The notes below the pieces were generated by a model. It ran no database searches and had not been told where the DNA came from. It worked only from the letters and a program-made list of their open reading frames with translations. The position numbers and the translations under genes are program-made. Shown piece by piece: positions 16,583 to 38,937 of a stretch of DNA of 46,559 nucleotides. Source of the stretch: Oscillospiraceae bacterium (GTDB taxonomy: Bacteria > Bacillota > Clostridia > Oscillospirales > Oscillospiraceae); contig JAFPWN010000021.1 of the NCBI GenBank assembly GCA_017412765.1, positions 1 through 46,559 of the forward strand, read 5' to 3'. Positions within the stretch are counted from its first letter, which is position 1, and each line of letters starts with the position of its first letter.

Positions 16583-16599
16583 GTGCCCAATTAGGGCGC
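16583..16599. repeat. Recurrent 17-bp palindrome, copy 1
   Basis: GTGCCCAATTAGGGCGC: arms GTGCCC/GGGCGC, one mismatch from perfect. On the minus strand it runs straight into the ribosome site AAGGAGG of the 113-residue protein. See the other copies at 24274, 27225 and 38818. Confidence 0.7.
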
Positions 16600-16600
16600 A

Positions 16601-18118
16601 TTAAGCTATTTCTTCTTCAGGCTGTGAAGTTTCAGCCAAAGCTGCATTGTATTCTTCCCAACGGTGCTTAGCATCAGGATCGGTTTTCATGGCTTCCTCA
16701 ATTGCCATTGTTTCGCGATACTCTGCAGCAGCCGCTTCAATCGTCCAATTTGCGGTTAATCCCATCTTCTCTACCATTTGTTTTATATCTGAGAGGCTAA
16801 CTTTGAAAAACTCTTTTCGTGGGTTAACTTTGTTCATTTGCATCAGCGCAAATGCCTTGTGCAAGGAGGTTTCAAGAGACGGAGCATCGTCACTCTCAAT
16901 TATAGCGTGAACATCAAACGGAAATGGCACCGAAGCATCGCCAAGCTCACGAATACGATCGAGCGGTTCAAGGCGGCGAGTCATTCCGATTTTATATACA
17001 TTTTCGCCGAAGGCACCAATATTTGATATTACATATACATTTCCGTGCTTTGTTTGTTGAGCCATTGACAGGGCTCTTTGATTCTTTTCCTCAGCTTCAG
17101 TTAGTTTCTGCTGTAGATCCGCAAGCTCAGCTTCAAACTTCTCTCGCTGTTCGGCTGAAGCTTGTTCCATTTCAGAGCGCACCTTTTCCATCGCCTTTTG
17201 AAGCATTGCTTCCTCTTTTGCGGCTTCTTTTTGTGCCCGTTCGTACTCACGGCGAGCCTTTTCTTCTTCTCGCATCTGCTCACGGAGCTGCCGCTGTTCT
17301 TCTTGCTGCTGGGCCTTAAGCTCGTTGCAAACAACTGCCCATTTAAGTTCTTCCAGACGAGCCTCAAGGTAATCCTGATTTATGCGGGCATTACGGAAAG
17401 CCTCACCATTGAGGTTAACCAAGCTGTATGCATCTTTAATTTGTTGCTCAAGCTTTCCATAGTTGTCCTTCTTTGTTTTAGAAAGAATAGAATCAACCTT
17501 TCCGTTAAAGGCATCCACAACGAAGTGAATCGCTGTAGATTTTCTTACACGTTCCACATAGTCACAGCTCGCGGCTTCTCCGGCAGAAACCATGGACGCA
17601 CTTCTTGCTCGAGCCTTCTTAAGTTCTTGCCCGGCCTCAGCAAATCCAAAGTCATCTGCAAGCTCATCAAGTACAGAATATGTAGGCTTTAACCATTCAT
17701 CGCCATAGCCATCAATAACATTCTTAATTGCAATAGCAGCTTTTTGATATTCTTCGGATTTTTGCTTTATATCGTAAGCTTCCCCGGCAATATCACGGGC
17801 TTTTTCTTCGGCCTCAGTTACAATTCTCTGTGCTTCCTTGCTAGCCTCATCTAGTTTATTTCGGGCATAGTCCATATCCATCTGAGCGCTTCTCTTGACG
17901 GTATCGACATATTCATCCGCCTGTTTCCGTATATTTGCGCATTCGGCTTCTATGTCAATTATTTGTTGATACTTTACAAGCTCACGAATTCTCTCTGCTG
18001 CAGCCGACATATCGGTGTTATATCGATTCTCTGCTGTAGTGCGCTTTTTCTTTTCTTGCAGCCAAAGGACAAGAAAAACTATAGCAGTTATTAAAAGCAT
18101 AACAACAAGAACAATCAT
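16601..18118 (-). CDS. Membrane-anchored DUF4041 and T5orf172 (GIY-YIG-like) protein
   Basis: The 505-residue protein has an N-terminal membrane helix (residues 2-20), a coiled coil (about 25-125), the DUF4041 region (about 130-265), a second highly charged coiled coil (about 268-350) and a C-terminal T5orf172/MUG113 domain (about 358-450) with NVYVISN, VYKIGMTRR and LETSLHKAF. T5orf172 domains are relatives of GIY-YIG nucleases and are thought to bind or cut DNA. DUF4041 proteins are frequent in prophages; their role is unknown. It lies 28 bp behind the repressor gene on the same strand, so it should be expressed in the lysogen. Superinfection exclusion or another defence role is an inference. 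A/T-rich relative to the phage core. Confidence 0.8.
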   Translation of the reverse strand: MIVLVVMLLITAIVFLVLWLQEKKKRTTAENRYNTDMSAAAERIRELVKYQQIIDIEAECANIRKQADEYVDTVKRSAQMDMDYARNKLDEASKEAQRIVTEAEEKARDIAGEAYDIKQKSEEYQKAAIAIKNVIDGYGDEWLKPTYSVLDELADDFGFAEAGQELKKARARSASMVSAGEAASCDYVERVRKSTAIHFVVDAFNGKVDSILSKTKKDNYGKLEQQIKDAYSLVNLNGEAFRNARINQDYLEARLEELKWAVVCNELKAQQQEEQRQLREQMREEEKARREYERAQKEAAKEEAMLQKAMEKVRSEMEQASAEQREKFEAELADLQQKLTEAEEKNQRALSMAQQTKHGNVYVISNIGAFGENVYKIGMTRRLEPLDRIRELGDASVPFPFDVHAIIESDDAPSLETSLHKAFALMQMNKVNPRKEFFKVSLSDIKQMVEKMGLTANWTIEAAAAEYRETMAIEEAMKTDPDAKHRWEEYNAALAETSQPEEEIA

Positions 18119-18146
18119 TATATACCTCTATTCTCTAAGCCAAATA

Positions 18147-18536
18147 TCAAGCTTCTTCTTTAGCCAGCTCAGATTGATAAGTTTTTTTGTATCTGCCGGA
18201 GGAAACAAGATCTTCGGCATAGTCTATCATTCTCTCTTTTCCTTCGTCATTCATTGATCTGAAGAAATTAAGCAACTTATCTTCTAAGGATGACTTGGAA
18301 ATTTGTTCAACAGCCTTCTCTTGAGGTATTTCAGAAAATGATTCTACTCCGTATATTTTGCAAAGGACGATAAAAGTATCTGAATCAGGCTGGCTGTGAC
18401 CGCTTTCCCAGCCATAAAGAGTCTTTTCGGAGATTGTAATACCGTAGTTCTTGAGGTAATCTATTACCTCTCTAACCGAAATATTTAGCTCTCTTCGCCG
18501 ATTTTTTAAGAAAAGAGCGATTTGTTTTTTGCTCAT
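18147..18536 (-). CDS. XRE-family phage repressor (CI-like)
   Basis: The 129-residue protein has an N-terminal helix-turn-helix (about residues 5-60; ISEKTLYGWESGHSQPDSDT) typical of Xre/Cro-CI repressors, and a helical C-terminal part (LEDKLLNFFRSMNDEGKERM) used for oligomerisation, but no LexA-type self-cleavage domain. It is divergent from the early genes and should hold the lysogenic state by binding the intervening operator. The lack of a peptidase domain suggests induction by a route other than RecA-driven autocleavage. GAGGTGG precedes the ATG. Confidence 0.85.
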   Translation of the reverse strand: MSKKQIALFLKNRRRELNISVREVIDYLKNYGITISEKTLYGWESGHSQPDSDTFIVLCKIYGVESFSEIPQEKAVEQISKSSLEDKLLNFFRSMNDEGKERMIDYAEDLVSSGRYKKTYQSELAKEEA

Positions 18537-18555
18537 AAGACCACCTCTAAAAATT

Positions 18556-18659
18556 AATATAGTGTCTTAATTATCTGTTGTCAATAAATTTTTCTTCAAA
18601 ATAAAGAAAGATTTAGCAAAAAAGTCTTGACATTCTACAAAATGAAGTGTATTTTAGAA
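18556..18659. promoter_or_regulatory. Lysis-lysogeny switch: divergent promoters and operator
   Basis: Leftward promoter: TTGACA (18579-18584 complement), 17-bp spacer, TATATT (18556-18561 complement). Rightward promoter: TTGACA (18627-18632), 17-bp spacer, TATTTT (18650-18655). An inverted repeat TTCTACAAAAT (18633-18643) with ATTTTAGAA (18651-18659) overlaps the rightward promoter core and is the best operator candidate. The region is strongly A/T-rich. Confidence 0.7.
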
Positions 18660-18697
18660 TTAAGTTCTGAGTTTTGAAGAAAGAGGAGGTAGGAAGA

Positions 18698-18913
18698 ATG
18701 CAAATTGCAGAAAAGTTGAAACAGCTTGTAGACGGTAAGGGTGTGACTTATACCTTTATTTCCGAGAAGACAGGTATTCCGGTGAATTCCATCTCTCGCT
18801 CATTTCTTGGGAAAAGAAAATTGCAAGCTGATGAGATGGTAGCTATTTGCTCTGCTGTAGGGATTAATCCAAGCGACTTATATCCTGAATCAATCTCAAC
18901 ACCATCTCAGTAG
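18698..18913 (+). CDS. Small XRE-family regulator (Cro-like)
   Basis: The 71-residue protein is a lone helix-turn-helix domain (KGVTYTFISEKTGIPVNSIS as recognition region), first gene of the rightward early operon and opposite the repressor, hence the Cro position. The start at 18698 is supported by AGAGGAGG; an in-frame ATG 24 bases earlier overlaps this ribosome site. Confidence 0.82.
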   Translation: MQIAEKLKQLVDGKGVTYTFISEKTGIPVNSISRSFLGKRKLQADEMVAICSAVGINPSDLYPESISTPSQ

Positions 18914-18942
18914 TATTTTACCCGATTTCGGAGGCGATAACC

Positions 18943-19401
18943 ATGTACAATAAAACACCGAATGCAATCCAAAGGGCGCGGAACAGTGCCGGTTTTACGC
19001 AGGAAGCCCTTGCGGAACGCGCCGGCTACTCCGACGATACCATCAGAGCATGGGAGAGTGGCGCTCGCAACTGCCCGATCGACGCGCTGGGGATCCTCAG
19101 TGACATCCTGCAGGCGCCATGGCTCACGAGCGTTTATCTGCGCGAGCTGCCGAATAACAGCATCGAAGCTGTTGTTCCTGCCTTTACTCCCGGCCGCCCG
19201 ATAGCGGAGGCTGCGGCGGATTACATTTCCTGCATTCTGGATCTTGTCGACGACAGGTTTGACCGAAAGCTGCTCCGCATGATCGCAGACGGCAAAATCG
19301 ACAAGGATGAAGAGCACGTTTTTGATCAAATCATGAGCGCTTCCGAGAAGCTGATCAAGGCATATTACGAGATGCGTTTTGCCGAGAAGGAGAGAAGATA
19401 G
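18943..19401 (+). CDS. XRE-family HTH protein with helical C-terminus
   Basis: The 152-residue protein has an N-terminal Xre domain (residues 5-60; FTQEALAERAGYSDDTIRAW) and a helical C-terminal domain of unknown role (about 85-150). Similar proteins sit between cro and replication genes of Clostridia phages, where they act as secondary regulators. CGGAGGCG precedes the ATG. GC content rises here to the phage-core level. Exact role unknown. Confidence 0.75.
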   Translation: MYNKTPNAIQRARNSAGFTQEALAERAGYSDDTIRAWESGARNCPIDALGILSDILQAPWLTSVYLRELPNNSIEAVVPAFTPGRPIAEAAADYISCILDLVDDRFDRKLLRMIADGKIDKDEEHVFDQIMSASEKLIKAYYEMRFAEKERR

Positions 19402-19402
19402 C

Positions 19403-19663
19403 ATGCCGAGAATAAAAGGATTTACCGAAGAGCAGAAAAGAGATTATGCCGTCAAGCGCCGCCAGGATGAGATCATCCGAGGTCTGCACGCATACAAAGG
19501 CGTAAACAATCTTACTTATGAGTCAATGGCGAAGCAGGTCGGCATCAGCCACGGAAGCCTTTTCAAGATCATGAAGGGGCAGGGTGCCGGGCTTACGCTC
19601 GACCAATGGCTGCGCGTTGTCAGCCTCGCCGGGCTTGAGGTCACGAGGGAGAACACGATATGA
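19403..19663 (+). CDS. Small HTH DNA-binding protein
   Basis: The 86-residue protein has a helix-turn-helix around residues 33-60 (NLTYESMAKQVGISHGSLFK) after a basic N-terminus. I start it at ATG 19403, just behind the preceding stop; GAGAAGATAGC gives a modest ribosome site and translational coupling is likely. Possible roles are excisionase-like or early regulator; sequence does not decide. Confidence 0.7.
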   Translation: MPRIKGFTEEQKRDYAVKRRQDEIIRGLHAYKGVNNLTYESMAKQVGISHGSLFKIMKGQGAGLTLDQWLRVVSLAGLEVTRENTI

Positions 19664-19679
19664 AAAAGGCAATAAAAAA

Positions 19680-19711
19680 GCACCCGACGGTGCGGGTACA
19701 CCGTCGAGTGC
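19680..19711 (-). terminator. Hairpin with minus-strand T-run
   Basis: GCAC-CGACGGTG pairs with CACCGTCG-GTGC (19680-19692 with 19699-19711; one unpaired base on each side). On the minus strand TTTTTT follows, so it would stop antisense RNA coming from the replication genes. A second small hairpin ATAACC-GAAAA-GGTTAT lies at 19717-19733. A 42-codon frame (19661-19789) spans both but looks like a by-product. Confidence 0.55.
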
Positions 19712-19791
19712 TGTGCAATAACCGAAAAGGTTATCACGAGAACAAAATTATTATAACACAGCGATTTCTATTTTGCAAGGGGGAATAGCCT

Positions 19792-20532
19792 ATGGATCAA
19801 GAAATACAAGTTCAGAGGCTGCCGCCCTATACGCTGGTGTTCAACAGCATCATTCAGGATTCGCGGCTCCGGCTGCCGGTCAGAGCGGTGCTTATCCTTA
19901 TGCTCTCCACGCCGCCGGACTGGGATTTCTCAATCCGCGGAATGGCGAAGATCGCCGGAGTCAACAAAGATACGATGACGAAGATGATCAAGGAGCTTGA
20001 GGACGCCGGCTACGTTACCCGCGAGGATCAGAGCCGCGAGGACGGTCGCTTCGCTCACTCTAAGTACATAATACAGGCGATGCCTGACTCACCGTGTCCG
20101 AAAAATTCGGACACGGAAAACTCTTCACCGTGTCCGAAAAAACCGTGTCCGAAAAATTCGGACGAAATAAATAAACAAGAAATAAATAATATACCCCCTA
20201 TAGTCCCCCAAGGGGGACGTAAGCGGCAGTATAAGACAGCGCCGGACTGGAAGCCGGAGCGTTTTGCCGGACTCTGGCGGTTTTATCCGAGAGGCGAGAA
20301 TAAGCAAGCGGCGATTCGGGCGTGGGACAGGCTTCGGCCGGACGACAGCACGATAGACCGGATGGCAAAGGCATTACAGCGACAAATGCGAAGCAAATCG
20401 TGGCAGGAGGGGATAGGCATTCCCCACCTTGCAACGTGGCTTAACGGTCACCGATGGGAAGACGAGGATAAAGGACCCGTGAATGCCGGAGACAGCTCCG
20501 GTGGCTGGGCGCCCGATCTGGAGGTGATCTGA
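19792..20532 (+). CDS. Winged-helix phage replication initiator
   Basis: The 246-residue protein has an N-terminal winged helix (about residues 20-85; FSIRGMAKIAGVNKDTMTKM as recognition region), a low-complexity linker with a repeated PCPKNSD/PCPKKPCPKNSD segment (about 100-125), and a C-terminal helical domain rich in Trp (FAGLWRFYPRGENKQAAIRAW) like DnaD-type or lambda-O-type loaders. Such proteins bind the phage origin and recruit helicase; the dnaB-like gene follows with a one-base overlap. The linker is encoded by palindromic iterons, so the origin probably lies inside the gene. AGGGGGAA precedes the ATG. Confidence 0.78.
   Translation: MDQEIQVQRLPPYTLVFNSIIQDSRLRLPVRAVLILMLSTPPDWDFSIRGMAKIAGVNKDTMTKMIKELEDAGYVTREDQSREDGRFAHSKYIIQAMPDSPCPKNSDTENSSPCPKKPCPKNSDEINKQEINNIPPIVPQGGRKRQYKTAPDWKPERFAGLWRFYPRGENKQAAIRAWDRLRPDDSTIDRMAKALQRQMRSKSWQEGIGIPHLATWLNGHRWEDEDKGPVNAGDSSGGWAPDLEVI
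20092..20205. other. Candidate phage replication origin (iterons plus A/T-rich tract)
   Basis: The palindrome CCGTGTCCGAA-AAA-TTCGGACACGG (20092-20116) is followed by a half copy CCGTGTCCGAAAA (20128-20140) and a nearly complete third copy (20143-20163). A 35-base A/T-rich tract (20164-20198) comes next. Iterons followed by an A/T-rich unwinding region inside the initiator gene is the lambda ori(O) plan. A GTCCCCC/GGGGGAC hairpin (20203-20218) closes the region. Confidence 0.6.
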
Positions 20533-21878: not shown

Positions 21879-21913
21879 CTTTGAAAACTAAATAACCGAA
21901 AGGTGGAAAAATC

Positions 21914-22681
21914 ATGAGAACAATAGCAATACTTAACCTGAAAGGCGGCGTTGCCAAGACCACAACGGTCATCAACACCGCCAGCATTCTGGCTGGGGAC
22001 TATAAGCAGCGGGTACTGCTCATAGACGCCGATAGCCAGTGCAATCTTACCGAGTTTTTTTCGGACGGCAAGCCGTACTGCGGAGATACTCTCGCGGATA
22101 TCCTGAGGGGCTATACCTGGCCTGTGGAAAAAGCACTTCACCCGGTAGGACCCGAGATGAGCCTGACTATTATCCCGGCGAGTGAAACTCTTATGGATCT
22201 TGACCTTACGAAGGCAGAGAGCGGCGAGGTCAATGTTAAAATTCTGAAAGACTGTCTGAATGAAGTCCAGGACGATTACGACTACTGCCTTATCGACTGC
22301 CCGCCGGCATTCAACGCCGCTTCGGCCGCTGCATTGGTAGCCGCCGATGAAGTCGTTATCCCAATAAAGCTTGACGCTTTTTCACTGCGGGGCATGGTCA
22401 ATCTATTCCGACAAATTAAGAATATGCGAGCCATCAATCCTGGAATCCGGGTGACGGGCTGCCTTCCGACAATGTACTACAACTCCAAATCGCTCACCGA
22501 GGCGGTCGAAGTGCTCAAAAAGAATGGCTTGCATGTATTTCATCCTATTCGCAGGTCAAATAAGGTTGACGAGATGACGTTCGCCCAGGAAGCGCTGAAT
22601 ACATATTCTCCTCGCAGCGCCGCCGGCGTTGACTATCGCACGTTTGTAAAGGAGCTTGTGGGAGGTGTGAATAATGGCTGA
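21914..22681 (+). CDS. parA: ParA/Soj-family partition ATPase
   Basis: The 255-residue protein is a Walker-type segregation ATPase with the deviant Walker A KGGVAKTTT (residues 10-18), DADSQCN (motif A'), and LIDCPPAF (Walker B). ParA forms ATP-dependent gradients on the nucleoid that move ParB-bound DNA. AAAGGTGG precedes the ATG. The following parB overlaps by eight bases. Such a pair is expected on plasmids, phage-plasmids or chromosomes and is unusual in an integrated siphophage. Confidence 0.93.
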   Translation: MRTIAILNLKGGVAKTTTVINTASILAGDYKQRVLLIDADSQCNLTEFFSDGKPYCGDTLADILRGYTWPVEKALHPVGPEMSLTIIPASETLMDLDLTKAESGEVNVKILKDCLNEVQDDYDYCLIDCPPAFNAASAAALVAADEVVIPIKLDAFSLRGMVNLFRQIKNMRAINPGIRVTGCLPTMYYNSKSLTEAVEVLKKNGLHVFHPIRRSNKVDEMTFAQEALNTYSPRSAAGVDYRTFVKELVGGVNNG

Positions 22682-24122
22682 AAAGAAAACCGGATTTAAT
22701 CTTGCGGCCGCGCTCGGAGCTGTGCCTAATCTGGACACCGGCAAGGAACAGATCGAGTATATCGACATCGACCGCATTAAGAGCGACGATAAAAACTTCT
22801 ACGAGCTCAGCGCGCTTGACGCTCTTATAGAGAATATTGAACTCGTCGGTCTTATGGACCCTATTCGAGTCAGACCGGACGGCGATGAATACATAATCGT
22901 CAGCGGTCACCGCCGCACAGCTGCACTCAGGAAGCTCTGCGAGTCCGATGATAAATGGCGCTCGGTACCGGCAATCGTGGAGGATGGCAATTCTTCTCCG
23001 GCAATGCAGGAGCTGCGCCTTATATACGCGAACAGCGCAACGCGCGAGATGTCCTCAGTTGATAAGGCAAAGCAGGTCGAGCGCGTGACTGAGCTCCTAT
23101 ATCAGCTGAAGGAGGAGGGCGTTGAGTTTCCCGGGCGCATGCGCGATCACGTCGCTGAGGCGTGCAATATCTCAAAGTCCAAGCTCGCAAGGCTTAAGGT
23201 GATAAACGATAACCTTATCCCGGATATGTGGGAACGCTACAATAAAGGTGAGCTCACGGAGCAGGCAGCGTATACGATAGCGCGGCTTCCACAGAACGTC
23301 CAGGAGGATCTGCAGAAGCTTCAGCCGAAAAAGTCGATATTAGGTGGTTCCGCCGAAAATATCCTGCATAATTATGAAAAATACTATGAGCCTACCTGCG
23401 AATGCCCGGATGGCACTGAATGTAAGCATAAAGAAAAGCGAATAAAGGTAGCAGCCTCTGCTACTAATTCTTGGGATTATTGCGATGGCGGTTGCTGCTT
23501 AAAATGTAACCATTCTTGTAGCTACAGATGTTCTAAGTCTTTGGCGAAAAAAGCTGACGATAAAGCGAAAGAGGGAAAACGCGCAGAAGCTGAAGCGAAA
23601 AAAGCAGCTAAAAAAATTGAATCGGCGCAGGAACAGAGCAGCAGAAATGCCGCTTTCCTTGTTAGCCTTGCAGATAATGCCGGACTTAAAGATGATGCTA
23701 TGATAAAAACTGCTACCTACTATGGTTACGAGCAGCATTCAGTGAAAGACTTGAGACGTTATGCCTCTGGTGATAAACCAATAGCAATTCGCCCTTATGA
23801 TCCAACTCCGCGATTCTCTTTTTCCGGAAACGCTTCGCCGCTTATAGAGACGGCAAAGTTGCTTAAGGTTTCAACAGATTATCTGCTTGGCCTTACAGAA
23901 GATAACGCCCAAACTGCAACAACCGACGAGCCAACGTTCCGCACCGGAGAGCCGCCGAAGGAAGGTACATATTATTGCAAGTTCGACTGCTCCGGTGTGA
24001 TTCTTCATCAGGTTGCGGTCTGGAACTCCTTGTGCAAATGGTGGGCGTTCAAGAAAGGCGCAAAGATCGACGCCGAATGCCTCGGCTGGTATCCTCTGCC
24101 GGAGGACAAAGAGAATGCTTAA
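22674..24122 (+). CDS. parB: ParB-family partition protein with composite C-terminus
   Basis: The 482-residue protein starts like ParB/Spo0J: ParB nuclease-fold domain (about 26-115, with SGHRRTAALRKL at 77-88) and a KorB-like HTH (about 160-220; EACNISKSKLARLKV). Beyond the family norm it carries a Cys-rich cluster (about 240-290; twelve or more Cys, zinc-binding likely), a Lys/Ala helix, an Xre-like end fragment LLKVSTDYLLGL (about 400) and a C-terminal DUF551-like segment with WYPLPED. The middle third is distinctly A/T-rich, suggesting fusion of parts. It should bind centromere-like sites; the recurrent 17-bp palindrome is a candidate. GGGAGGTG precedes the ATG. Confidence 0.85.
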   Translation: MAEKKTGFNLAAALGAVPNLDTGKEQIEYIDIDRIKSDDKNFYELSALDALIENIELVGLMDPIRVRPDGDEYIIVSGHRRTAALRKLCESDDKWRSVPAIVEDGNSSPAMQELRLIYANSATREMSSVDKAKQVERVTELLYQLKEEGVEFPGRMRDHVAEACNISKSKLARLKVINDNLIPDMWERYNKGELTEQAAYTIARLPQNVQEDLQKLQPKKSILGGSAENILHNYEKYYEPTCECPDGTECKHKEKRIKVAASATNSWDYCDGGCCLKCNHSCSYRCSKSLAKKADDKAKEGKRAEAEAKKAAKKIESAQEQSSRNAAFLVSLADNAGLKDDAMIKTATYYGYEQHSVKDLRRYASGDKPIAIRPYDPTPRFSFSGNASPLIETAKLLKVSTDYLLGLTEDNAQTATTDEPTFRTGEPPKEGTYYCKFDCSGVILHQVAVWNSLCKWWAFKKGAKIDAECLGWYPLPEDKENA

Positions 24123-24321
24123 AATCACCGTCATAGTGGCTTGTCCTCCGGGGCAAGCCATAGGAGTTAAAGAAGCTATCGCGATGGATCTTGAAAAGTA
24201 CGGCGATACAAAGGTTACGAATATCGAAGTCATCGAGCCGGAGCAGCTCCGGCTTGAGCTTGAAAACGGCAACGTGCCCAATTCGGGCACAGGAAGGAGA
24301 CTACAATGGAGACCACAATGA
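24115..24321 (+). CDS. Small unknown phage protein
   Basis: The 68-residue protein has a beta-alpha start (KITVIVACPPGQAIGVKEAI) and a charged second half; it resembles nothing I can name. The ATG at 24115 overlaps the parB stop and is served by GGAGGAC. Its C-terminal codons contain a copy of the 17-bp palindrome (24274-24290), and it overlaps the next gene by 16 bases. Confidence 0.6.
   Translation: MLKITVIVACPPGQAIGVKEAIAMDLEKYGDTKVTNIEVIEPEQLRLELENGNVPNSGTGRRLQWRPQ
24274..24290. repeat. Recurrent 17-bp palindrome, copy 2
   Basis: GTGCCCAATTCGGGCAC, perfect arms. It is followed at once by AGGAAGGAG, the ribosome site of the gene at 24306. Confidence 0.8.
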
Positions 24322-25553: not shown

Positions 25554-25584
25554 CAACTATTTATTGACGCACGCCGATAGGGCT

Positions 25585-25617
25585 ACGGTCATTATCACAA
25601 CCGGAGGTAATGACCGT
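25585..25617 (+). promoter_or_regulatory. Inverted repeat around the rep ribosome site
   Basis: ACGGTCATTA (25585-25594) is exactly inverted at 25608-25617, directly before the rep ATG. The ribosome site GGAGG (25603-25607) lies in the loop. It may be a translational control hairpin or a Rep binding/nicking site. Confidence 0.6.
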
Positions 25618-26364
25618 ATGCCAAAAAGAAAAAAGATAATAGTTGCCGGAGGGCTGATCCTTGAGACGATTTATCCCGCCATCTATGGCGGCGAGCACCC
25701 GAAGGTCAGAGCTGAAAAGAAAAAGCTCTCATCGGAAGCGCAGCAGCGAATGAATCAGAAATACTCCTGGCAGAAGCTTGAACTAATGCTTGCAGCGAAT
25801 TTCATACCCGGCGACCATGTGTGCGGCGTTACATACGATGATGAGCACCTTCCGGCAACAAGGAAGATAGCCGAGGGCAGGCTGAAACGTTTTCGTGCAG
25901 ATCTCGCCAAATGCTGGAAGCTTAAGGGCAAAAAGCTTGTTATGTTCTGGTGTACCGAGGAGCTCCACGGAATAGGGCGGCTTCACCATCACCTTGTAAT
26001 TAACGCCGCCGGATCTGATGATTACGCTGACATCGCAAGGATATGGGGTCAGGGCGAGGTTGACATCAAGCCTTTGCGAGTTGACAGGGAAAAGAACTAC
26101 GAAACTCTCGCTCGATACATGACAAAGGAAAAGCCGGAGCGCCTCGGTGCCAGAGGCTGGAGCTACACTCGGACGGCAGTCAAGCCGGAGATTGAAACCT
26201 TTGTGGTCGACGATGATACTCCGCTGCAGGTGCCAAGCGGAGCGATGATGTTGGAGGAAGCCTCGGAAACAACGGCATACGGATCCTTCAGATATATTAA
26301 GTATTACGCTCGCAACATTGACCCACGCAAGAGGATAAGAGCGAAGCGCCGGCGCCGAAAGTAA
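25618..26364 (+). CDS. HUH-type rolling-circle replication protein (ORF2/G2P-like Rep)
   Basis: The 248-residue protein carries the HUH metal motif in GRLHHHLVIN (His at about 122-124) and a candidate nicking tyrosine in NYETLARYMTKE (Tyr at about 160 and 167), the layout of rolling-circle Rep proteins of the phage G2P/ORF2 group. These nick one DNA strand and stay covalently attached to the 5' end. The C-terminus is very basic (RKRIRAKRRRRK). The start at ATG 25618 follows GGAGG. It is unusual beside a theta-type initiator and DnaB. Together with the next gene it is flanked by similar sequence at 25578 and 26613. Confidence 0.82.
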   Translation: MPKRKKIIVAGGLILETIYPAIYGGEHPKVRAEKKKLSSEAQQRMNQKYSWQKLELMLAANFIPGDHVCGVTYDDEHLPATRKIAEGRLKRFRADLAKCWKLKGKKLVMFWCTEELHGIGRLHHHLVINAAGSDDYADIARIWGQGEVDIKPLRVDREKNYETLARYMTKEKPERLGARGWSYTRTAVKPEIETFVVDDDTPLQVPSGAMMLEEASETTAYGSFRYIKYYARNIDPRKRIRAKRRRRK

Positions 26365-26426
26365 CCTTTTTTAGATTTTTCTGACTTGAAAAATATATTA
26401 TTCTTAGGAGAAAGGACTGTTTTGTA

Positions 26427-26658: not shown

Positions 26659-26684
26659 GTTTTGTCCTGTGGAGGTGATAGCCC

Positions 26685-27224: not shown

Positions 27225-27241
27225 GTGCCCGAATCGGGCAC
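27225..27241. repeat. Recurrent 17-bp palindrome, copy 3
   Basis: GTGCCCGAATCGGGCAC; perfect arms, in fact palindromic except for the centre. Nine bases downstream is GGAGG, the ribosome site of the small terminase gene. Confidence 0.8.
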
Positions 27242-27261
27242 AAGTGAATGGAGGTGCAGCA

Positions 27262-27768
27262 ATGCCGAAGAGCCCGAAGCCCGTTGAGAATATGACCAAG
27301 CATCTGACCCAGGATGAACGCGAAGCGCGAACTGCGGCCGAGGAGGAATTCATTCCGAGGCGTGCGGAGGTGATATTGATTATGCCTCCCGGTATGAGCC
27401 TCAAGGCAAAAACCTACTGGAAGAGCATCCTTCAGCGGCTTGAAGATAGCGGGACGATGCTCCTTGATGACCTGGACTCTGAGACATTCGGCCTTTACTG
27501 CAATCTTCTCGCCCGGCGCGACCGGCTCGATAGCGTCTGCAATCAGCTGATGAGCAGACTGTCCAAGGCGAAGGATAGCGCTGATCAGAACCTTGAGGTC
27601 ATTGAGAAGCTTGACGGAGTTATGGCGAAGCTCTCGAAGATGGAAACACTCATCCTTCAGTACGCAGAGAAGCTCGGCATGACGCCGTCCGGCCGGATCC
27701 GGCTTGCACAGAAGAAGGCTGCGAAAATAGCGGCTGATTTGGATACTGATGACTTGTTTGGAGATTAG
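27262..27768 (+). CDS. terS: Phage terminase small subunit, P27 family
   Basis: The 168-residue protein matches P27-type small terminase: PPGMSLKAKTYWKSILQRLEDSG after the start, a central helical region, then the conserved YAEKLGMTPSGRIRL and C-terminal DDLFGD. It recognises phage DNA and delivers it to the large subunit. GGAGG precedes ATG 27262; the frame is open further upstream but without coding character. Confidence 0.9.
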   Translation: MPKSPKPVENMTKHLTQDEREARTAAEEEFIPRRAEVILIMPPGMSLKAKTYWKSILQRLEDSGTMLLDDLDSETFGLYCNLLARRDRLDSVCNQLMSRLSKAKDSADQNLEVIEKLDGVMAKLSKMETLILQYAEKLGMTPSGRIRLAQKKAAKIAADLDTDDLFGD

Positions 27769-27770
27769 CT

Positions 27771-28046
27771 ATGAATGAAATAATAAAACGCGCTCTCAAA
27801 AAAGGCTACCGCCCGGCAGAGCCGAAGCTCTACCCTCCCGATATTCGTAAGACCATTCCGAAAAGCTATTCCGATGAGGAAATCGAGTTTGGAGAGGCAT
27901 TTCTCGTCTATACACGGTACTACGGATATGACCGCAGTCAGGCATTCAGCCGTGAGCTCGTGAATCTGCCGCCGTATTACACGCTGAAACGTGCCGCAAG
28001 GTACATCCTGCGCTGCATAGCCCGCGACAGACGGAGGGCTGGCTAA
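27771..28046 (+). CDS. Small basic phage protein
   Basis: The 91-residue basic protein has no domain I recognise. It has a Tyr-rich centre (FLVYTRYYGYDRSQAF) and an Arg-rich end. It is tightly packed between small terminase and methyltransferase genes, its stop TAA sharing a base with the next ATG. A packaging or nuclease-accessory role is only guessed from position. Confidence 0.6.
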   Translation: MNEIIKRALKKGYRPAEPKLYPPDIRKTIPKSYSDEEIEFGEAFLVYTRYYGYDRSQAFSRELVNLPPYYTLKRAARYILRCIARDRRRAG

Positions 28047-29296
28047 TGAATACTGTTACGAAGCTTGAGATGCACGATATTAACGCGCTTGTGCCATACG
28101 CTCAGAATGCAAGAACGCACTCTCCGGAGCAGGTTGCGCAGCTTCGTGGGAGCCTGCGCGAATTCGGTTTTGTGGCGCCGGTGCTTATCGACGCCGACGG
28201 CAATATCATAGCCGGTCACGGAAGAGTCCTCGCCGCAAAGGCGGAAGGTTTTGCCGAAGTGCCCTGTGTGCTCGTCGAACATTTGAGCGACCTTCAGCGC
28301 AAGGCATATATCCTGGCGGATAATCGACTTGCCGAAGCGGCCGGCTGGGATAAGGAACTCGTTTCAATGGAGCTGGAGACGCTCCGCGAAGCCGGTTTTG
28401 ATGTTAATCTGACGGGTTTTTCTGAGAATGACATCATTCTTGATGAGATGTCAGATCTCACCGAGGATGATTTTGAAGTTCAGCTTCCGGCTGAGCCAAA
28501 GTCAAAGCGAGGCGAAATCTACCAGCTTGGCAATCATCGCCTAATGTGCGGCGACGCTACCAGCGAGGCTGACGTTAATGCTCTGATGGACGGGGCAATC
28601 GCCGACCTCTTACTTACGGATCCACCTTACAACGTGAATGTAACCGGCGGTACCGGCGAGCACCTGAAAATCGAGAATGACAATCAGAGCGATGTTGAAT
28701 TTGAAGCCTTTCTTCAAAAATTCTTAACTTTCGCCGTGTCCGTCCTCGCCCCAGGCGCAAGCTTTTATATTTGGCATCCGGATGGAGAACAAGGTCGAGC
28801 ATTCCGCAATGCGCTGCACGCTGTAGGACTTGCAGTCCGTCAATGCCTCATCTGGGTCAAGAACGTCGCAGTTTTATCCAGGCAGGATTACCATTGGCAG
28901 CATGAGCCTTGCCTGCATGGCGAGGTTGAAGCCCTGGAGTTGCCGGAAACATGGAACGCTCACGAGGCTTGCCTTTACGGCTGGAAGGACGGAAAGAAGC
29001 ACCGCTGGTGCTCGGACAGAAAGCAGACGACTATTCTTGAGTTTGATAAGCCGGCACGTAATGCAGATCATCCAACGATGAAGCCGGTGCTGCTCTTTGC
29101 GTATCAGATTCAGAACTCCACGCTTCCTGGAGCACTGATTTATGATCCGTTTGCCGGTAGCGGCACAACGATAATCGCAGCCGAGAAGCTTGGCCGCAGC
29201 GCTTATGTTATGGAATACGATCCTCGTTATGTTGATGTCATAATTGCCCGATGGGAGGCGCTGACCGGCGAAAAGGCGGTGCTCCTAAGTGGCTAA
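28046..29296 (+). CDS. DNA methyltransferase with ParB-like N-terminal domain
   Basis: The 416-residue protein joins a ParB/Srx-fold domain (about residues 5-105; IIAGHGRVLAAKAEG) to an N6-adenine/N4-cytosine methyltransferase with the catalytic TDPPYNV at about 191-197 and the AdoMet motif DPFAGSGTTIIAAEKLGR near the end. The order DPPY before FAGSG marks the beta class. Phage-borne versions modify their own DNA against host restriction. No restriction enzyme gene is adjacent. Confidence 0.92.
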   Translation: MNTVTKLEMHDINALVPYAQNARTHSPEQVAQLRGSLREFGFVAPVLIDADGNIIAGHGRVLAAKAEGFAEVPCVLVEHLSDLQRKAYILADNRLAEAAGWDKELVSMELETLREAGFDVNLTGFSENDIILDEMSDLTEDDFEVQLPAEPKSKRGEIYQLGNHRLMCGDATSEADVNALMDGAIADLLLTDPPYNVNVTGGTGEHLKIENDNQSDVEFEAFLQKFLTFAVSVLAPGASFYIWHPDGEQGRAFRNALHAVGLAVRQCLIWVKNVAVLSRQDYHWQHEPCLHGEVEALELPETWNAHEACLYGWKDGKKHRWCSDRKQTTILEFDKPARNADHPTMKPVLLFAYQIQNSTLPGALIYDPFAGSGTTIIAAEKLGRSAYVMEYDPRYVDVIIARWEALTGEKAVLLSG

Positions 29297-31533: not shown

Positions 31534-31542
31534 GAGGCGAAT

Positions 31543-32992: not shown

Positions 32993-33771
32993 GAGTAAGC
33001 GTCAACGGCGAAATCTGCGCCGATGAATGGAAGTGGCTTTTTGACTGGTACGGTATCCCTGCCTTCTGTCCGATGATGATGAGGAAAGCGATAGAGGATA
33101 ATCCCGAGGGCGAGGAGCTCATTGTAGAGATTAATTCCTGCGGCGGAAGCGTTTTCGCCGGCTTTGAAATCTACAGCATACTGCAGAAGGCGACGTGCGC
33201 AACGGTCGCAGAGGTTCAGAGTCTTGCGGCTTCGGCTGCTTCGACTATCATGGTGGCTTGCAGCAAGATCGTTCTCTCGCCGGTTGCGCAGGTGATGATC
33301 CATCTTCCCAGCGCATCAACCGAGGGTGATGTCCACGACCACGAACAGAGCGTCCGGATCCTTACGAGCCTCAAAGAGTCTATTCTTAACGCCTATGAGC
33401 TCAGATGCGGAGGCAAAACCACACGCGAGCGCCTTAACTCGCTTATGGAAGCTGAAAGCTGGCTGTATCCGCAGGAGACTATCGCCCTCGGCCTTGCTGA
33501 TGAGATTATGGGCGATGAAAATAATAAGCTTTCTGACCTGCCTCAAAACATCAGAAACGCTGTCGGCGGCGGCATCCGCGCGATAGCGAATTCTGCGGGA
33601 AACGCTGACCTCGCTTCTCTCCTCAAACGTTATGAGGAGGCCGTCAGAAACGGAGCAGAGCCCGCAGAGGGACATCCCGTTATAAGTGAGAAACCCGGCG
33701 CGGAGCCGGTCTCAAATAATCCTGTATGGAGCCGCAAGGCCCGTCTGGAAATCGAAAAAAACAGATTCTAA
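32989..33771 (+). CDS. ClpP-like prohead protease
   Basis: The 260-residue protein has the ClpP/S49-type fold used by many phages for capsid maturation: IVEINSCGGSVFAGFEIYS (substrate groove), the nucleophile in SLAASAASTI, the catalytic His in VMIHLPS, and a downstream Asp region. The C-terminal 60 residues are disordered and may act as scaffold. ATG overlaps the portal stop by four bases. Confidence 0.92.
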   Translation: MRVSVNGEICADEWKWLFDWYGIPAFCPMMMRKAIEDNPEGEELIVEINSCGGSVFAGFEIYSILQKATCATVAEVQSLAASAASTIMVACSKIVLSPVAQVMIHLPSASTEGDVHDHEQSVRILTSLKESILNAYELRCGGKTTRERLNSLMEAESWLYPQETIALGLADEIMGDENNKLSDLPQNIRNAVGGGIRAIANSAGNADLASLLKRYEEAVRNGAEPAEGHPVISEKPGAEPVSNNPVWSRKARLEIEKNRF

Positions 33772-33784
33772 GGAGGATCACACA

Positions 33785-35047: not shown

Positions 35048-35058
35048 GGTGATAACAT

Positions 35059-35349
35059 ATGACGATAACGCCTGAGATCATTGCCGGCGTTAAAAGCTAT
35101 ATGCACGCCGAAGATGAGGCTGATGCGGTTATCCTTCCACTTATCATGGCTGCTGTGGAATATCTCGACCACGCCGGTATTGAGGCGCCGGAAACCCAGG
35201 AAGAGAGCGAGAGCTATATGCTCTGTGTAAAGGCGCTCACGCTGCACTACTACGATCATCGTGATTCGGTGAACGGCGAGGCGCCGATTCCACTGGGACT
35301 GCGGCCGATCATCAATCAGCTGAAACTTTGCAGTATCGCGAACAGATAG
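35059..35349 (+). CDS. Head-tail connector (gp6-like)
   Basis: The 96-residue protein matches phage gp6-like connectors: ITPEIIAGVKSYMHAEDEADA, a central helix, then LCVKALTLHYYDHRD and an end LRPIINQLK. It sits on the portal ring in the head-tail interface. A terminator follows directly (35365-35403). Confidence 0.88.
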   Translation: MTITPEIIAGVKSYMHAEDEADAVILPLIMAAVEYLDHAGIEAPETQEESESYMLCVKALTLHYYDHRDSVNGEAPIPLGLRPIINQLKLCSIANR

Positions 35350-35364
35350 GGACGTGAGCCATTA

Positions 35365-35403
35365 GGGCAGGAAACGCACACAGCTGCGTTTCCTGCCCTT
35401 TTT
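35365..35403 (+). terminator. Strong terminator inside the morphogenesis operon
   Basis: GGGCAGGAAACGCA (35365-35378), six-base loop, TGCGTTTCCTGCCC (35385-35398), then TTTTT. A perfect 14-bp stem between connector and head-closure genes; later genes would need antitermination, partial read-through or their own promoter. Confidence 0.85.
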
Positions 35404-35422
35404 CGTTAGGAGGTGTTGTAAC

Positions 35423-35758
35423 TTGATAGACGCCGGAAAACTGCGTCACAGGGTCGTTTTTGAGTGCTTCACGGGGAATACGGACGAGTTCGGCGGAGCG
35501 ATGGATTACGATGATACCGAGTGGTCGCTTTTCCGTTCGTGCTATGCGGCGATTGATCCGACAAGCGGCCGCGAGTTTTACGAGGCTCATCAGAGCCAGA
35601 GCGAGGTTACTCACAAAATCCGGTGCCGTTACTTCGCCGGTCTTAAACCTTCGATGCGCATCCGTTACGGCGAGAGGATCTTCAAGATCATCTCCGTTAT
35701 CGACTGGGAGGAGCGCCATGAGAGCTTCCTTATAATGGCGAAGGAGTTGGTGCGATGA
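35423..35758 (+). CDS. Phage head closure protein
   Basis: The 111-residue beta-rich protein fits the SPP1 gp16 / HK97 gp7 head-completion family: DAGKLRHRVVFE at the start, DYDDTEWSLFRSCYAAIDPTSG, then YGERIFKIISVID. TTG start at 35423 with AGGAGG ten bases ahead. It overlaps the next gene by four bases. Confidence 0.9.
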   Translation: MIDAGKLRHRVVFECFTGNTDEFGGAMDYDDTEWSLFRSCYAAIDPTSGREFYEAHQSQSEVTHKIRCRYFAGLKPSMRIRYGERIFKIISVIDWEERHESFLIMAKELVR

Positions 35759-36234
35759 TTACTCATTACAGCTCAAATGATCTTAAGGACCTTGCTAAGG
35801 CGCTTTCTCGTACCGGCAAGAAGGTAACCAAGATTGTTACTAAGGCTGCAGGCAAGGGTACGACTATTGTGCGCCGACGCACTAAACCGAAAATCCCGGT
35901 CGGAGAAACCGGCGAGCTTCGCAAGGGCATCATCCGAAAGGCCGAGCGCTCTCGAACAAAAGGAAAAAAGGTTTACGACCTTATGTTCGACCCCAAAAAG
36001 AACGATATCTTTCAGAAGCCTGTCAAGAACCCCGGAGAAGCCGGAAGCACGAATACAAAGGGCGGTCATGCCTATTACCCGAAAAGCGTTGACGCTGGTT
36101 TTATTACGAGAGATAAAGGCTGGGTGCCCGGTTATCACTTCATGGCGGAAGGCGCCGAAGAGGCGTTTCCGGAAGCCAGGAAGAAGATGATCGATACCAC
36201 AATGGATGAGATTGAGAAGGAGCTGGCCAAATGA
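35755..36234 (+). CDS. HK97 gp10-family tail completion protein
   Basis: The 159-residue basic protein matches the gp10 family: LKDLAKALSRTGKKVTKIVTKAA at the N-terminus, PVGETGELRKGI, GGHAYYPKSVDAGF, and a final helix. Such proteins stopper the tail tube at the neck. It overlaps both neighbours by four bases. Confidence 0.88.
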   Translation: MITHYSSNDLKDLAKALSRTGKKVTKIVTKAAGKGTTIVRRRTKPKIPVGETGELRKGIIRKAERSRTKGKKVYDLMFDPKKNDIFQKPVKNPGEAGSTNTKGGHAYYPKSVDAGFITRDKGWVPGYHFMAEGAEEAFPEARKKMIDTTMDEIEKELAK

Positions 36235-36617
36235 CCGTCGAAGAGATAATTAAAAACCAAATGGAGCGCTGCTCCAACGTCAGCAACAAGGTCTTTTCGC
36301 TCACGAGCATCAAGGATGAGCGGCCGCCTTATGTGCTCTATGTCACCGAGAAATCTGACGAGGTGGACGATCTTGACGGCGGTACCGGACTTCTGTCCGA
36401 AGATTTCTCTGTGTACATTGTCGCCCGGTCGGTGCCGGAGCTCGTTAATCTTTCCAAGGTTATCCGCGGACTGCTCATTAGTTTGCGGGAAACTCAGACC
36501 GAAGATATTTACATCGAAAACGTAACAGTCAAACAAACCGCGCCGGATGACCGTGCACGGGAAACCACATTCTGCAGTCGTGTTTACGACCTGCATATTG
36601 ATTATCAGGAGGTATAA
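36231..36617 (+). CDS. Tail terminator/completion protein (gp17-like)
   Basis: The 128-residue protein has the alpha/beta layout of minor tail-completion proteins: N-terminal helix TVEEIIKNQMERC, a strand PPYVLYVTEKS, a second strand-helix unit FSVYIVARSVPELVNLSKVIR and a last strand. Identification rests mainly on position between gp10 and the tail tube gene. Confidence 0.7.
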   Translation: MTVEEIIKNQMERCSNVSNKVFSLTSIKDERPPYVLYVTEKSDEVDDLDGGTGLLSEDFSVYIVARSVPELVNLSKVIRGLLISLRETQTEDIYIENVTVKQTAPDDRARETTFCSRVYDLHIDYQEV

Positions 36618-36619
36618 AA

Positions 36620-37111
36620 ATGAAATCCAGAACTCTGGGCTCTAAGCTCTTTGCAAACGCAAAGAAAATCGGCGGTGTCCGCACCGTCAACGGCGTGGAT
36701 ATCAGCGCCGAAACCATCGACGAGACTACCTGGGACAACGAGGACGGCTACAAGTCTTTCGAGCCCGGCTTCATTGACGGCGGCGAGGTCACCGTATCCG
36801 GTCTTTATGATAATGCCAGTGAGGGACAGTCCTCTATTATGACGGCAATCGAGGCAGGATACGTCCTGCCATGTCATATCGACTTCCCCACGAAGCAAGG
36901 AAAGAGCTGGGTGTTCGCCGGCGCTCCGACGCGGTTTGCTACCGGCTTTGATATGAACGACGCGATCACCTTCGACGCAACGTTTAAGGTCAGCGGAAAA
37001 CCGTACATATGCGCCACGTCTGAGGTGGACACATACATAGCCCAGCTCACAGACGTTTACACCGGCGCGGCAGCTGCATCTGCGCAGTCCGGAGGCAACG
37101 GCAATGGCTGA
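36620..37111 (+). CDS. Major tail tube protein
   Basis: The 163-residue protein matches siphophage tail-tube proteins: LGSKLFANAKKIGGVRTVNG, then DNEDGYKSFEPGFIDGGEVT, a central FPTKQGKSWVFAG, and FDATFKVSGKPYI. AGGAGG precedes the ATG. The presence of a tube gene without a sheath gene defines a siphovirus. Confidence 0.9.
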   Translation: MKSRTLGSKLFANAKKIGGVRTVNGVDISAETIDETTWDNEDGYKSFEPGFIDGGEVTVSGLYDNASEGQSSIMTAIEAGYVLPCHIDFPTKQGKSWVFAGAPTRFATGFDMNDAITFDATFKVSGKPYICATSEVDTYIAQLTDVYTGAAAASAQSGGNGNG

Positions 37112-37475
37112 TAAACACAATGACACTGTCTTTATCAACCTCGATAAGCCCTATGAGGTAACGTTTTCACACGTTGCCATCAAGCGCTTCTCTGCAATTC
37201 ACGAACTTTCAGTCAATCAGATCGTTGCGGCGGTAGCGCGTTATGATCTCGCTACTGACATCATATTCCTGAGTCTCAACGGTACGAATCCCACAATGAC
37301 CCGCGAGGATCTCGACAAGCTCATCGAGAAGGAGTTTGATCGCGGAAACATGACGTTCACCGATGTCATCAGCATCGCTGCCGATGCCGTTGCAAACGCA
37401 TTCGGCATCGAGGAGGGCGAAGAGCGCGCAGAAGATGTAGAAAACCCCAGGAAGGCGGCTGGGACTGGCGAGTAA
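37104..37475 (+). CDS. Tail assembly chaperone (G-type, unshifted form)
   Basis: The 123-residue protein begins with a beta-rich region (FINLDKPYEVTFSHVAIKRF), then helices typical of gpG-like chaperones that coat the tape measure. The in-frame stop at 37473-37475 is bypassed by a -1 frameshift at 37442-37448 to give the longer G-T protein. It overlaps the tail tube gene by eight bases. Confidence 0.88.
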   Translation: MADKHNDTVFINLDKPYEVTFSHVAIKRFSAIHELSVNQIVAAVARYDLATDIIFLSLNGTNPTMTREDLDKLIEKEFDRGNMTFTDVISIAADAVANAFGIEEGEERAEDVENPRKAAGTGE

Positions 37476-37492
37476 GCCTGTCCCTTGCCGCC
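37442..37492 (+). promoter_or_regulatory. Programmed -1 ribosomal frameshift signal
   Basis: The heptamer A-AAC-CCC (37442-37448) fits X-XXY-YYZ in the zero frame. After five bases a stem follows: GGCGGC-T-GGGAC (37454-37465) with GTCCC-TT-GCCGCC (37480-37492), 11 bp. The zero-frame stop lies in the loop. The -1 frame is open to 37768. Confidence 0.88.
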
Positions 37493-37768
37493 GATCTCGG
37501 CATCTCCCTCTCGGAATGGGAACGCATGACGCCTGCGCAGCTTACGATCTACGCCGAGGCTGCCGCAGAGAAGCGCAAGGTCGAGAGGGAGAACAAGAAC
37601 CGCGATATTTATAACCTGTCTGTTCTTATCCGCCAGCAGATATGGAGTAAAAAACTCGTTGAGTACGAGGATGTGTTCCCGGATGAGGAAAAAGAGGCTG
37701 ACGATGATGAGTTCTTTAACTACATCTGCGCGCTCAACCGTCAATTCGGCGGAGAGGAGGTGTTTTAG
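37448..37768 (+). CDS. Frameshift-encoded T extension of the tail assembly chaperone
   Basis: This frame has no convincing start of its own and is read after the -1 shift; the full G-T product would be about 221 residues from 37104. It begins QEGGWDWRVSLSLAADLGIS, contains LSEWERMTPAQLTIYAEAAAE, and ends in an acidic, helical tail. The T part recruits tail tube protein in the lambda system. It touches the tape measure start (GTG at 37768). Confidence 0.85.
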   Translation, partial: QEGGWDWRVSLSLAADLGISLSEWERMTPAQLTIYAEAAAEKRKVERENKNRDIYNLSVLIRQQIWSKKLVEYEDVFPDEEKEADDDEFFNYICALNRQFGGEEVF

Positions 37769-38937
37769 TGAGCGTAGTAAGAAATGACATAGTCCGCGTT
37801 GGTGCGGACTTTTCTCCCTTTATAAAGGGCACAAAGCAAGGCGAAAAGGCCGTTGCTTCTTTTAACCTATCCTCAAATAAGGTTTTCAGCCGGCTCAAGA
37901 GCTTCGGCAAGGCTGCTATGGCTGCAGTTTCGGTCACTGCTGTCATTGCTGCGGCAAATAAGTGCAAAGAGGCTTATGAGTCGCAGGCTGAGGCTAACGC
38001 GAAGCTTGAGCACGTCATGAGTCACTCGATGGGCGCGAGAGCCGAGGAAATCGCATCCGTCAAGGATCTGACCGACGCTCAGCAGTCTCTCGGCGTTATC
38101 AGCGCAGATATACAGGCTGCAGGAGCCCAGGAGCTCGCGACCTATGTTTCTATGACCGGTACTCTTAAGAAGCTCATACCGGTCATGAACGATATGACAG
38201 CGCAGCAGTACGGCTACAACGCCACGGCAGAAAACGCCGTCGGCATCGCAACGATGCTCGGCAAGGTCATGAACGGACAGACCGGTGCGCTTTCTCGTTA
38301 CGGTTACAGTTTTACCGAAGCTCAGGCAAAGGTGCTGAAGTACGGCAACGAAGAGGAACGCGTTGCCGTACTTGCTGACGTCGTATCCGCCTCAGTAGGC
38401 GGCATGAACGAAGCTCTTGCACAGACTCCTACCGGTCGCCTGCAGCAGGTAAAAAATCGCCTTGACGATATTCAGGCGAGTTTCGGCGCCGCGGTTACGA
38501 ACATCGAGGTGCTTTTCCTTCCGGCGCTGAACACAGTTAATAACGTGCTTGCCGGGATGGCCAATCTTGCGAATATGGTCGCGCAGGCCTTTGTCAATGT
38601 GTTCGGCGGCGCGGCTGCTGCTGCCGGCAATGCGGTCACCTACACCGGTGCCGCAACGAGCGGAGTCGATGATCTTACCGAGTCGCTCAATGAGGCGGGC
38701 GGAGCGGCCGATAGGCTCGGCACTGCCGGCTTTGATACGCTGCAGAAGCTCTCCGGAACGTCATCCGGAGGCGGCAGCGGCGGATCCGCGGGAAGTGGCG
38801 CTTCGATAACCTCAATTGTGCCCAATTTGGGCACAACACAGTTTGAAACGCCGGAGAGTCTTAAGAAGCTCGAAGAGTTCCTTGGAAGGATTAAGGAGAA
38901 GGTTAATTCCCTTGTCCCAGGACGCAAAATGGCTTGA
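37768..38937 (+). CDS. Tail tape measure protein (short)
   Basis: The 389-residue protein is helical: KGTKQGEKAVASFNLSS at the start, a hydrophobic helix about residues 48-66, long Ala/Gln-rich helices with QQVKNRLDDIQASFG, a Gly/Ala-rich hydrophobic stretch near 270-290, and a Gly/Ser linker GGGSGGSAGSG near 335-345. At roughly 1.5 Angstrom per residue it would set a tail of about 60 nm, short for a siphophage. It ends in TGA-C, and a second frame continues (38912-39112). A 17-bp palindrome copy lies in its coding sequence. GTG start behind GGAGGTG. Confidence 0.82.
   Translation: MSVVRNDIVRVGADFSPFIKGTKQGEKAVASFNLSSNKVFSRLKSFGKAAMAAVSVTAVIAAANKCKEAYESQAEANAKLEHVMSHSMGARAEEIASVKDLTDAQQSLGVISADIQAAGAQELATYVSMTGTLKKLIPVMNDMTAQQYGYNATAENAVGIATMLGKVMNGQTGALSRYGYSFTEAQAKVLKYGNEEERVAVLADVVSASVGGMNEALAQTPTGRLQQVKNRLDDIQASFGAAVTNIEVLFLPALNTVNNVLAGMANLANMVAQAFVNVFGGAAAAAGNAVTYTGAATSGVDDLTESLNEAGGAADRLGTAGFDTLQKLSGTSSGGGSGGSAGSGASITSIVPNLGTTQFETPESLKKLEEFLGRIKEKVNSLVPGRKMA
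38818..38834. repeat. Recurrent 17-bp palindrome, copy 4
   Basis: GTGCCCAATTTGGGCAC, perfect arms, inside the tape measure gene (codes for a VPNLGT segment). It is the only copy not next to a ribosome site. Confidence 0.8.

Follow-up and report, generated by a model that had tools for sequence, protein, structure and literature searches.

What protein, if any, reads a palindrome that recurs through a prophage? The window analyzed here, the whole 46,559-nt stretch of contig JAFPWN010000021.1 from an Oscillospiraceae bacterium (assembly GCA_017412765.1), contains a prophage that encodes its own ParA and ParB and in which the palindrome GTGCCC-N5-GGGCAC is repeated. A preliminary description of this DNA proposed that the repeats are parS-like sites of the phage ParA/ParB, operators or stoperators of a phage regulator, or 5'-untranslated-region (5'-UTR) hairpins that set translation.

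Here, we follow the palindrome through the host genome and related phages, find it written into the first codons of parB and statistically linked to ParB, and weigh the candidate binders. From these sequence comparisons we put at about 0.8 the probability that the copies are recognition and loading sites (parS-type) of a dedicated phage ParA-ParB system.

Copies of the site in the window and the host genome

The four copies first listed are all present in the window (coordinates without a contig are those of the window, and unstranded unless a strand is given). Three are exact: GTGCCCAATTCGGGCAC (24274..24290) adjoins the ribosome site of the 24306 gene, GTGCCCGAATCGGGCAC (27225..27241) lies 5' of the terminase-small-subunit start at 27262, and GTGCCCAATTTGGGCAC (38818..38834) lies in frame within a tape-measure-like open reading frame (ORF). 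The fourth, GTGCCCAATTAGGGCGC (16583..16599), has one mismatch and stands beside the ribosome site of a minus-strand gene (16229-16570). The adjacency to ribosome sites described for three copies holds for those at 16583, 24274 and 27225, not for that at 38818. That list of copies was incomplete. It missed a degenerate copy, GTGCCTAATCTGGACAC (22722..22738), in the 5' codons of parB (encoding VPNLDT), which has two mismatches to GTGCCC-N5-GGGCAC and one to GTGYCC-N5-GGRCAC, and a copy at position 743 of another contig (C3:743) that lies in the last codons of a lysin gene. The site is wider than first described and reads GTGYCC-RANTY-GGRCAC, with the half-site GTGYCCRA.

By chance, 46.6 kb should hold 0.003 matches to a fixed 12-base pattern, in keeping with the original claim, and the first 14 kb of the window, which is chromosome, holds no copy. 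Exact copies number four in the whole genome (74 contigs, 2,278,638 bases): the three that lie in the prophage part of the window (binomial p = 1.1e-5) and a fourth at C30:5403. The wider arms GTGYCC-N5-GGRCAC occur five times, at C3:743, 24274, 27225, 38818 and C30:5403, and the reversed pattern not at all; all five copies fall in the prophage, in its split-off right end (contig C3) or in a prophage remnant, and the host chromosome beyond these has no exact copy. When the window was shuffled with two mismatches permitted, 4 of 100 shuffles reached five matches, a much weaker test than the exact-copy statistics.

The assignment of contig C3 rests on an attL repeat at 14304..14340, the 3' part of a tRNA-Gly gene, which is matched by C3:927-963. 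The prophage is therefore inserted in tRNA-Gly and C3:1-963, with an endolysin gene near the start of the contig, is its right end. A holin-lysin stretch at C30:4661-5619 (our locus L007, same coordinates, in the host assembly G000) is 89% identical to C3:1-960, lies beside tRNA-Arg and still carries an exact site; we take it to be a prophage remnant because the surrounding genes look host-like, as judged from the ORF list.

The site in related phages

A tblastn search with the window ParB returned four phage records. The expectation that relatives with a homologous ParB carry the motif was borne out for the wider GTGYCC-N5-GGRCAC pattern, which all four records contain in two to five exact copies each; the strict GTGCCC-N5-GGGCAC form is present in three and missing from one. 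In every record one copy lies in the first parB codons and codes for V-[SP]-x-x-[DG]-T.

We extended the comparison with a ParB alignment search that yielded 61 loci, 15 viral and 46 from genomes, using genome patterns that avoid the palindrome and viral patterns of which one touches its last two residues; a plasmid search gave six records. The 61 loci (1.0 Mb, duplicates included) hold 194 sites at a spacing of 5, compared with 0 to 5 at each other spacing from 0 to 14 and none for the reversed pattern. The 179 other arm permutations average 1.9 matches, and the highest of them overlap the true site in sequence. Sites outside parB are common at 5-8 kb on the upstream side of the gene, become rare between 5 and 2 kb and do not occur in the 2 kb next to it; on the downstream side they are spread over 1-11 kb.

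The sister phage L023 retains three orthologous sites, among them those at 24274 and 27225, with arms kept and centers changed, and it has the same degenerate sequence in parB. At the place corresponding to 16583, a neighboring stretch of about 285 bp that includes the gene start is gone from L023, and a perfect site is still there.

Across 199 sites, positions 4/14 are T-A in 112, C-G in 48, C-A in 22 and T-G in 17, and positions 7/11 are A-T in 96, G-C in 39, A-C in 30, G-T in 29 and others in 5. Each half-site follows GTGYCCRA independently, as for a protein dimer on DNA.

A copy of the site constrains parB codons

With loci from a search for HUH replication genes (see below) and further loci added, the collection reached 89 ParB loci, which we grouped into 69 clusters at 90% ParB identity. 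Matches below 150 bits had been dropped, among them L005, which has an exact in-parB site. With in-frame copies counted within the first 330 nt of the called ORF, 55 of the 69 clusters carry an exact site in the 5' codons of parB; L009, whose ORF start was called far upstream, went uncounted despite an exact site at 10037. An exact copy outside parB is found in 58 of 69 clusters.

The peptide V[SP]xx[DG][TP] is encoded in 61 of the 69 clusters, and its codons are nearly invariant. Valine is GTG in 61 of 61 (background 50%), serine TCC in 39 of 41 (33%), proline CCC in 19 of 20 (33%), aspartate GAC in 44 of 44 (58%) and glycine GGC in 17 of 17 (47%), and the third base of codon four is G in 60 of 61 genes. 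We also scored palindromes without reference to the motif; of 74 proteins entered, 70 could be scored, the other four lacking the NF[YWF] landmark. Ahead of the NFY motif, the top-scoring 17-base palindrome reaches 7 or 8 of 8 pairs in 51 of the 70 genes; of 1290 windows taken from other parts of these genes, 98 score as high. In three of the 51 (L018, L087, L090) the palindrome differs from the site. In an AlphaFold2 model the site-coded ParB residues 16-23 have pLDDT below 50, and a stretch predicted with such low confidence could bear a constraint imposed by the DNA.

The in-parB copy varies with its phage. At position 4 (rho 0.79) and position 7 (rho 0.63) it is closer to the remaining copies in its own phage than to those in other phages, with none of 2000 permutations as high among 51 phages; shared base composition could add to this resemblance. 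We then examined four ParB lineages that have no exact GTGYCC sites, and three of them carry another palindrome with a copy in parB. Four GTGTTC-N5-GAACAC sites occur in L148, and the one within parB is read in another frame (peptide SVQVEH). In L114, and in L117, which is nearly identical to it, parB contains GTGTCCGATTCGGACCC and related sites of the GGTCC type lie outside it; L123 has GGTTCA-N3-TGAACC in parB and in two other places. For the fourth, L150, whose ParB scores only 118 bits, no alternative palindrome was found. L032 and L055 provide a mixed case: exact GTGTCC sites and further GTGTYC..GRACAC copies lie outside parB, and parB itself holds the mixed form GTGTCCAAATTGAACAC, again in another reading frame (peptide VQIEH). 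The 5' end of parB is one short DNA stretch that serves as code, in different reading frames, and most likely also as a binding site.

ParB and ParA

The candidate binder is encoded at 22674..24122 on the plus strand. This 482-aa protein combines a ParB_N/CTPase-type fold and a helix-turn-helix with a Cys-rich and further C-terminal part. It passes the Pfam ParB_N cut-off (27.5 against 26.3 bits), its PDB profile matches are to Noc, ParB and Spo0J, and its best Foldseek matches among solved structures are ParB-CDP, Noc, KorB and Spo0J. The canonical ParB model TIGR00180 falls below its cut-off (36.5 against 58.45 bits), and the best PHROG is a family with no assigned function, the next being a ParB-like partition protein. 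The adjacent gene (21914..22681, plus strand) encodes a 255-aa ParA (AAA_31, E 7.5e-41; phrog_164, ParA-like, 184 bits). Two features of a ParABS system are thus present, a deviant Walker ParA gene beside parB and a ParB with ParB_N and helix-turn-helix; the third, a replicon-specific palindrome linked to its own ParB, appears as a statistical association with exceptions, as detailed below.

The window encodes one more ParB_N protein, at 28046-29296 between the two terminase-small-subunit-like genes; this one is a fusion with an N6/N4 DNA methylase.

The site occurs with ParB

The prophage also encodes an HUH-type replication protein (25564-26364; PF23343, phrog_3584), which gave us a sample of loci chosen by their HUH gene and not by ParB or sites. 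Merging loci more than 95% identical reduced 58 loci to 49 clusters. Sites are present in 18 of 20 clusters with ParB and in 1 of 14 clusters without it that have at least 6 kb upstream (p = 1.4e-6); with in-parB copies subtracted, 14 of 20 and 1 of 14, respectively, have sites (p = 3.6e-4). The remaining 15 clusters have short upstream DNA and stood outside the comparison, and six of them carry sites. L107, which has ParA, no ParB and three sites, had been merged into another cluster; putting it back makes the ParB-negative count 2 of 15. Of two smaller scans, one by terminase gave seven loci with neither HUH, ParB nor sites, and one by DnaB gave two loci, both with ParB and one site each.

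A survey of 300 host-family genomes agrees. With strong ParB defined as E below 1e-25, a cut of our own, GTGYCCRANTYGGRCAC occurs in 16 of the 19 genomes that have one, compared with 29 of the remaining 281 (p = 3.4e-12), and the reversed pattern in 7 of 300; the ParB negatives in this survey are soft because at most five candidates were scored per genome. The three strong-ParB genomes missing the motif are G189, which has the GTGTTC type, G129, a contig of 5.5 kb whose in-parB site has one mismatch, and G284, where the ParB is weak. Nine of the 29 motif genomes without strong ParB were examined as ten stretches (L069-L078). No ParB homologue was detected at E 1e-4 in nine of the ten, and L078 has a distant one (34.5 bits) beside ParA.

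Probable sites of a phage partition system

The ParB-linked sites in relatives, the codon lock, the co-variation with ParB lineage and the HUH-selected set together support the original suggestion that these are parS-like sites of the prophage's own ParA/ParB. From these patterns we infer ParB binding, clamp loading and partition. A ParB dimer would read two GTGYCCRA half-sites through its helix-turn-helix; CTP-bound ParB would then close as a clamp and slide, like known ParB proteins. The in-parB site and the few dispersed copies would give rise to a ParB-coated body on the phage circle, after excision or during replication, for ParA to distribute, and clamps loaded between genes may also affect transcription. 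That partition of the excised phage is the main role has, on the sequence data, little better than an even chance.

Several observations weigh against this assignment. The most direct is the G004 prophage (L069 and L070, G004:C18:8000-42000), which has six intact sites together with an integrase, repressor, initiator, DnaB and HUH protein; no ParAB was found in the 34 kb examined, nor a strong ParB in the assembly. Either recent loss of ParAB or another binder could explain it. L073, L074, L075 and L077 carry two or three sites and no detectable ParB; these stretches are only 13.5-18 kb long, so ParB could lie outside them. In L071 most recognizable homologues are of late genes, and its ParB may likewise be elsewhere. 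L135 has no ParB and one GTGTTC-type site, and the ParB-like protein of G284 (118 bits) has no recognizable site. Conversely, L082, L085 and L087 have ParB and no recognizable in-parB copy, and in the window and L023 alike the in-parB copy is degenerate. The prophage is integrated, which makes its need for partition indirect. Finally, L099 and L107 have one and three sites, respectively, and carry ParA with a DUF3102-like gene in the place of ParB.

The last arrangement, ParA followed by a DUF3102-like protein, recurs in eight ParB-negative loci (L089, L104, L106, L108, L124, L125, L099 and L107), assigned by a Pfam run for L089 (4592-5557) and L108 and by sequence appearance for the others. 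The DUF3102 protein may be a different partner of ParA. L089 contained no conspicuous repeated palindrome, and L106 showed only unrelated pairs.

Alternative explanations

The strongest alternative is that ParB is mainly a gene regulator in the manner of KorB of RK2, with clamps between genes repressing or timing lytic transcription and partition secondary, which we regard as possible if doubtful. Placement speaks for it: of 144 outside-parB sites, 69 precede a ribosome site and start by at most 50 nt (46 of these by no more than 10 nt), compared with 17% of 1440 randomly chosen positions. The sop system of phage N15 reportedly helps late gene expression. KorB structures are among the fold matches of the phage ParB, and sliding enables KorB to silence from operators distal to the promoter (PMC11790492). 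However, much of the free space in compact phage genomes lies just upstream of ribosome sites, so this placement may be passive; sites also lie inside coding sequence (at 38818, in parB and at the lysin end, C3:743), and the L023 site persists without a neighboring gene start.

It is improbable that another conserved phage protein, such as the HUH Rep-like protein, the HTH_36 initiator or a DnaB-linked factor, binds the sites and ParB is a passenger. For this comparison we used the 31 clusters flanked by 8 kb or more on each side, excluding the window and L023. Because these clusters were chosen for having ParB, its presence in every one of them is not evidence; HUH homologues are present in 27. 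HUH genes also occur in five site-bearing stretches without ParB (L069, L073, L074, L075, L077), and the six sites of G004 likewise fit a different binder. On the other side, HUH clusters without ParB are mostly siteless (1 of 14 with sites), the repeats in the initiator gene differ among phages (27 loci), and the in-parB copy tracks the ParB lineage. We rejected the HUH protein on the strength of the HUH-selected set, which favored ParB (18 of 20 against 1 of 14). The initiator was rejected as well: four GTGYCCRA half-sites within the gene are seen in just two of the 27 loci, those of the window phage and L023, and four others hold one or two.

Operators or stoperators of the phage repressor (18147-18536) fare worse. 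Dispersed intergenic sites do resemble known stoperators, but a homologue of this repressor is present in only 3 of the 31 site-bearing loci, and its binding would not explain why a copy is locked into the codons of parB; we consider this very unlikely. Equally remote are 5'-UTR RNA hairpins setting translation, for although about half of the outside-parB sites are near a ribosome site, the non-pairing C..A is as common as the wobble T..G at positions 4/14 (22 and 17 of 199), copies lie inside parB and other genes, and the perfect L023 site remains without a gene start.

Implications of the parS-type assignment

If the sites are parS-type, they offer many natural pairs of a ParB and a putative parS, with several specificities (GTGYCC, GTGTTC, mixed GTGTYC, GGTCC, GGTTC) that can often be read from one gene. 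Such pairs make the evolution of ParB-DNA specificity directly testable, may supply new orthogonal ParB/parS tags, and raise the question of why integrating phages retain a partition machine. Tentatively, they could represent a large family of ParABS systems in Oscillospiraceae phages that has apparently not been described before. In such a family the centromere would lie in the 5' parB codons, protein and DNA address would move and change as one cassette, and dispersed copies would let ParB clamps govern both segregation of the excised phage and the timing of its expression. Six site strings had no match among 5.39 million open-access papers, subscription papers being mostly outside its coverage, and the matches listed for open literature on phage ParB/parS, Flavonifractor phage ParAB, parS within parB and prophage ParABS included no description of it.

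Neighboring genes

The HUH protein, the initiator and the DnaB helicase together make two replication modes possible. The replication-initiator gene contains repeats, GTGTCCGAAAAATTCGGACAC, at 20090-20170, which are probably origin iterons; their core, CCGTGTCC, resembles the ParB half-site in the window phage and differs in most relatives. A HicB-like antitoxin is encoded at 15522-16193, adjoining the integrase, and a small ORF upstream of it resembles HicA.

Comparison with known systems

The phage ParB shares its ParB_N domain and fold with chromosomal Spo0J and Noc, and in Bacillus subtilis a parS lies inside the spo0J gene. The phage site is not of the chromosomal parS family: its sequence differs from the chromosomal-type consensus, TGTTYCACGTGRAACA, of which the genome holds two one-mismatch copies, at C36. 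Dispersed sites are familiar from other replicons, with about a dozen OB sites in RK2 and IR sites scattered across the genome of phage N15. KorB, like the phage protein a member of the ParB family and one of its fold matches, is a CTP clamp whose OB operators lie proximal or distal to promoters; OB is 16 bp and of different sequence, compared with 17 bp here in a phage (PMC11790492).

The Sop system of N15 is likewise carried by a phage and of the ParA/ParB type; it has four palindromic IR binding sites (oligonucleotide arms GTGCGACC) whose sequence differs from the site described here, and a site in parB codons is not among the features given in the sections of that report consulted (PMC7205306). 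The N15 prophage is a linear plasmid, whereas the window prophage is integrated at tRNA-Gly. Partition modules on elements that also integrate have precedents: SXT/R391 integrative and conjugative elements carry SrpMRC, which is actin-type and not ParABS (PMC4489591), and integrating actinobacteriophages carry ParABS modules (PMC11652158), as the prophage studied here appears to do.

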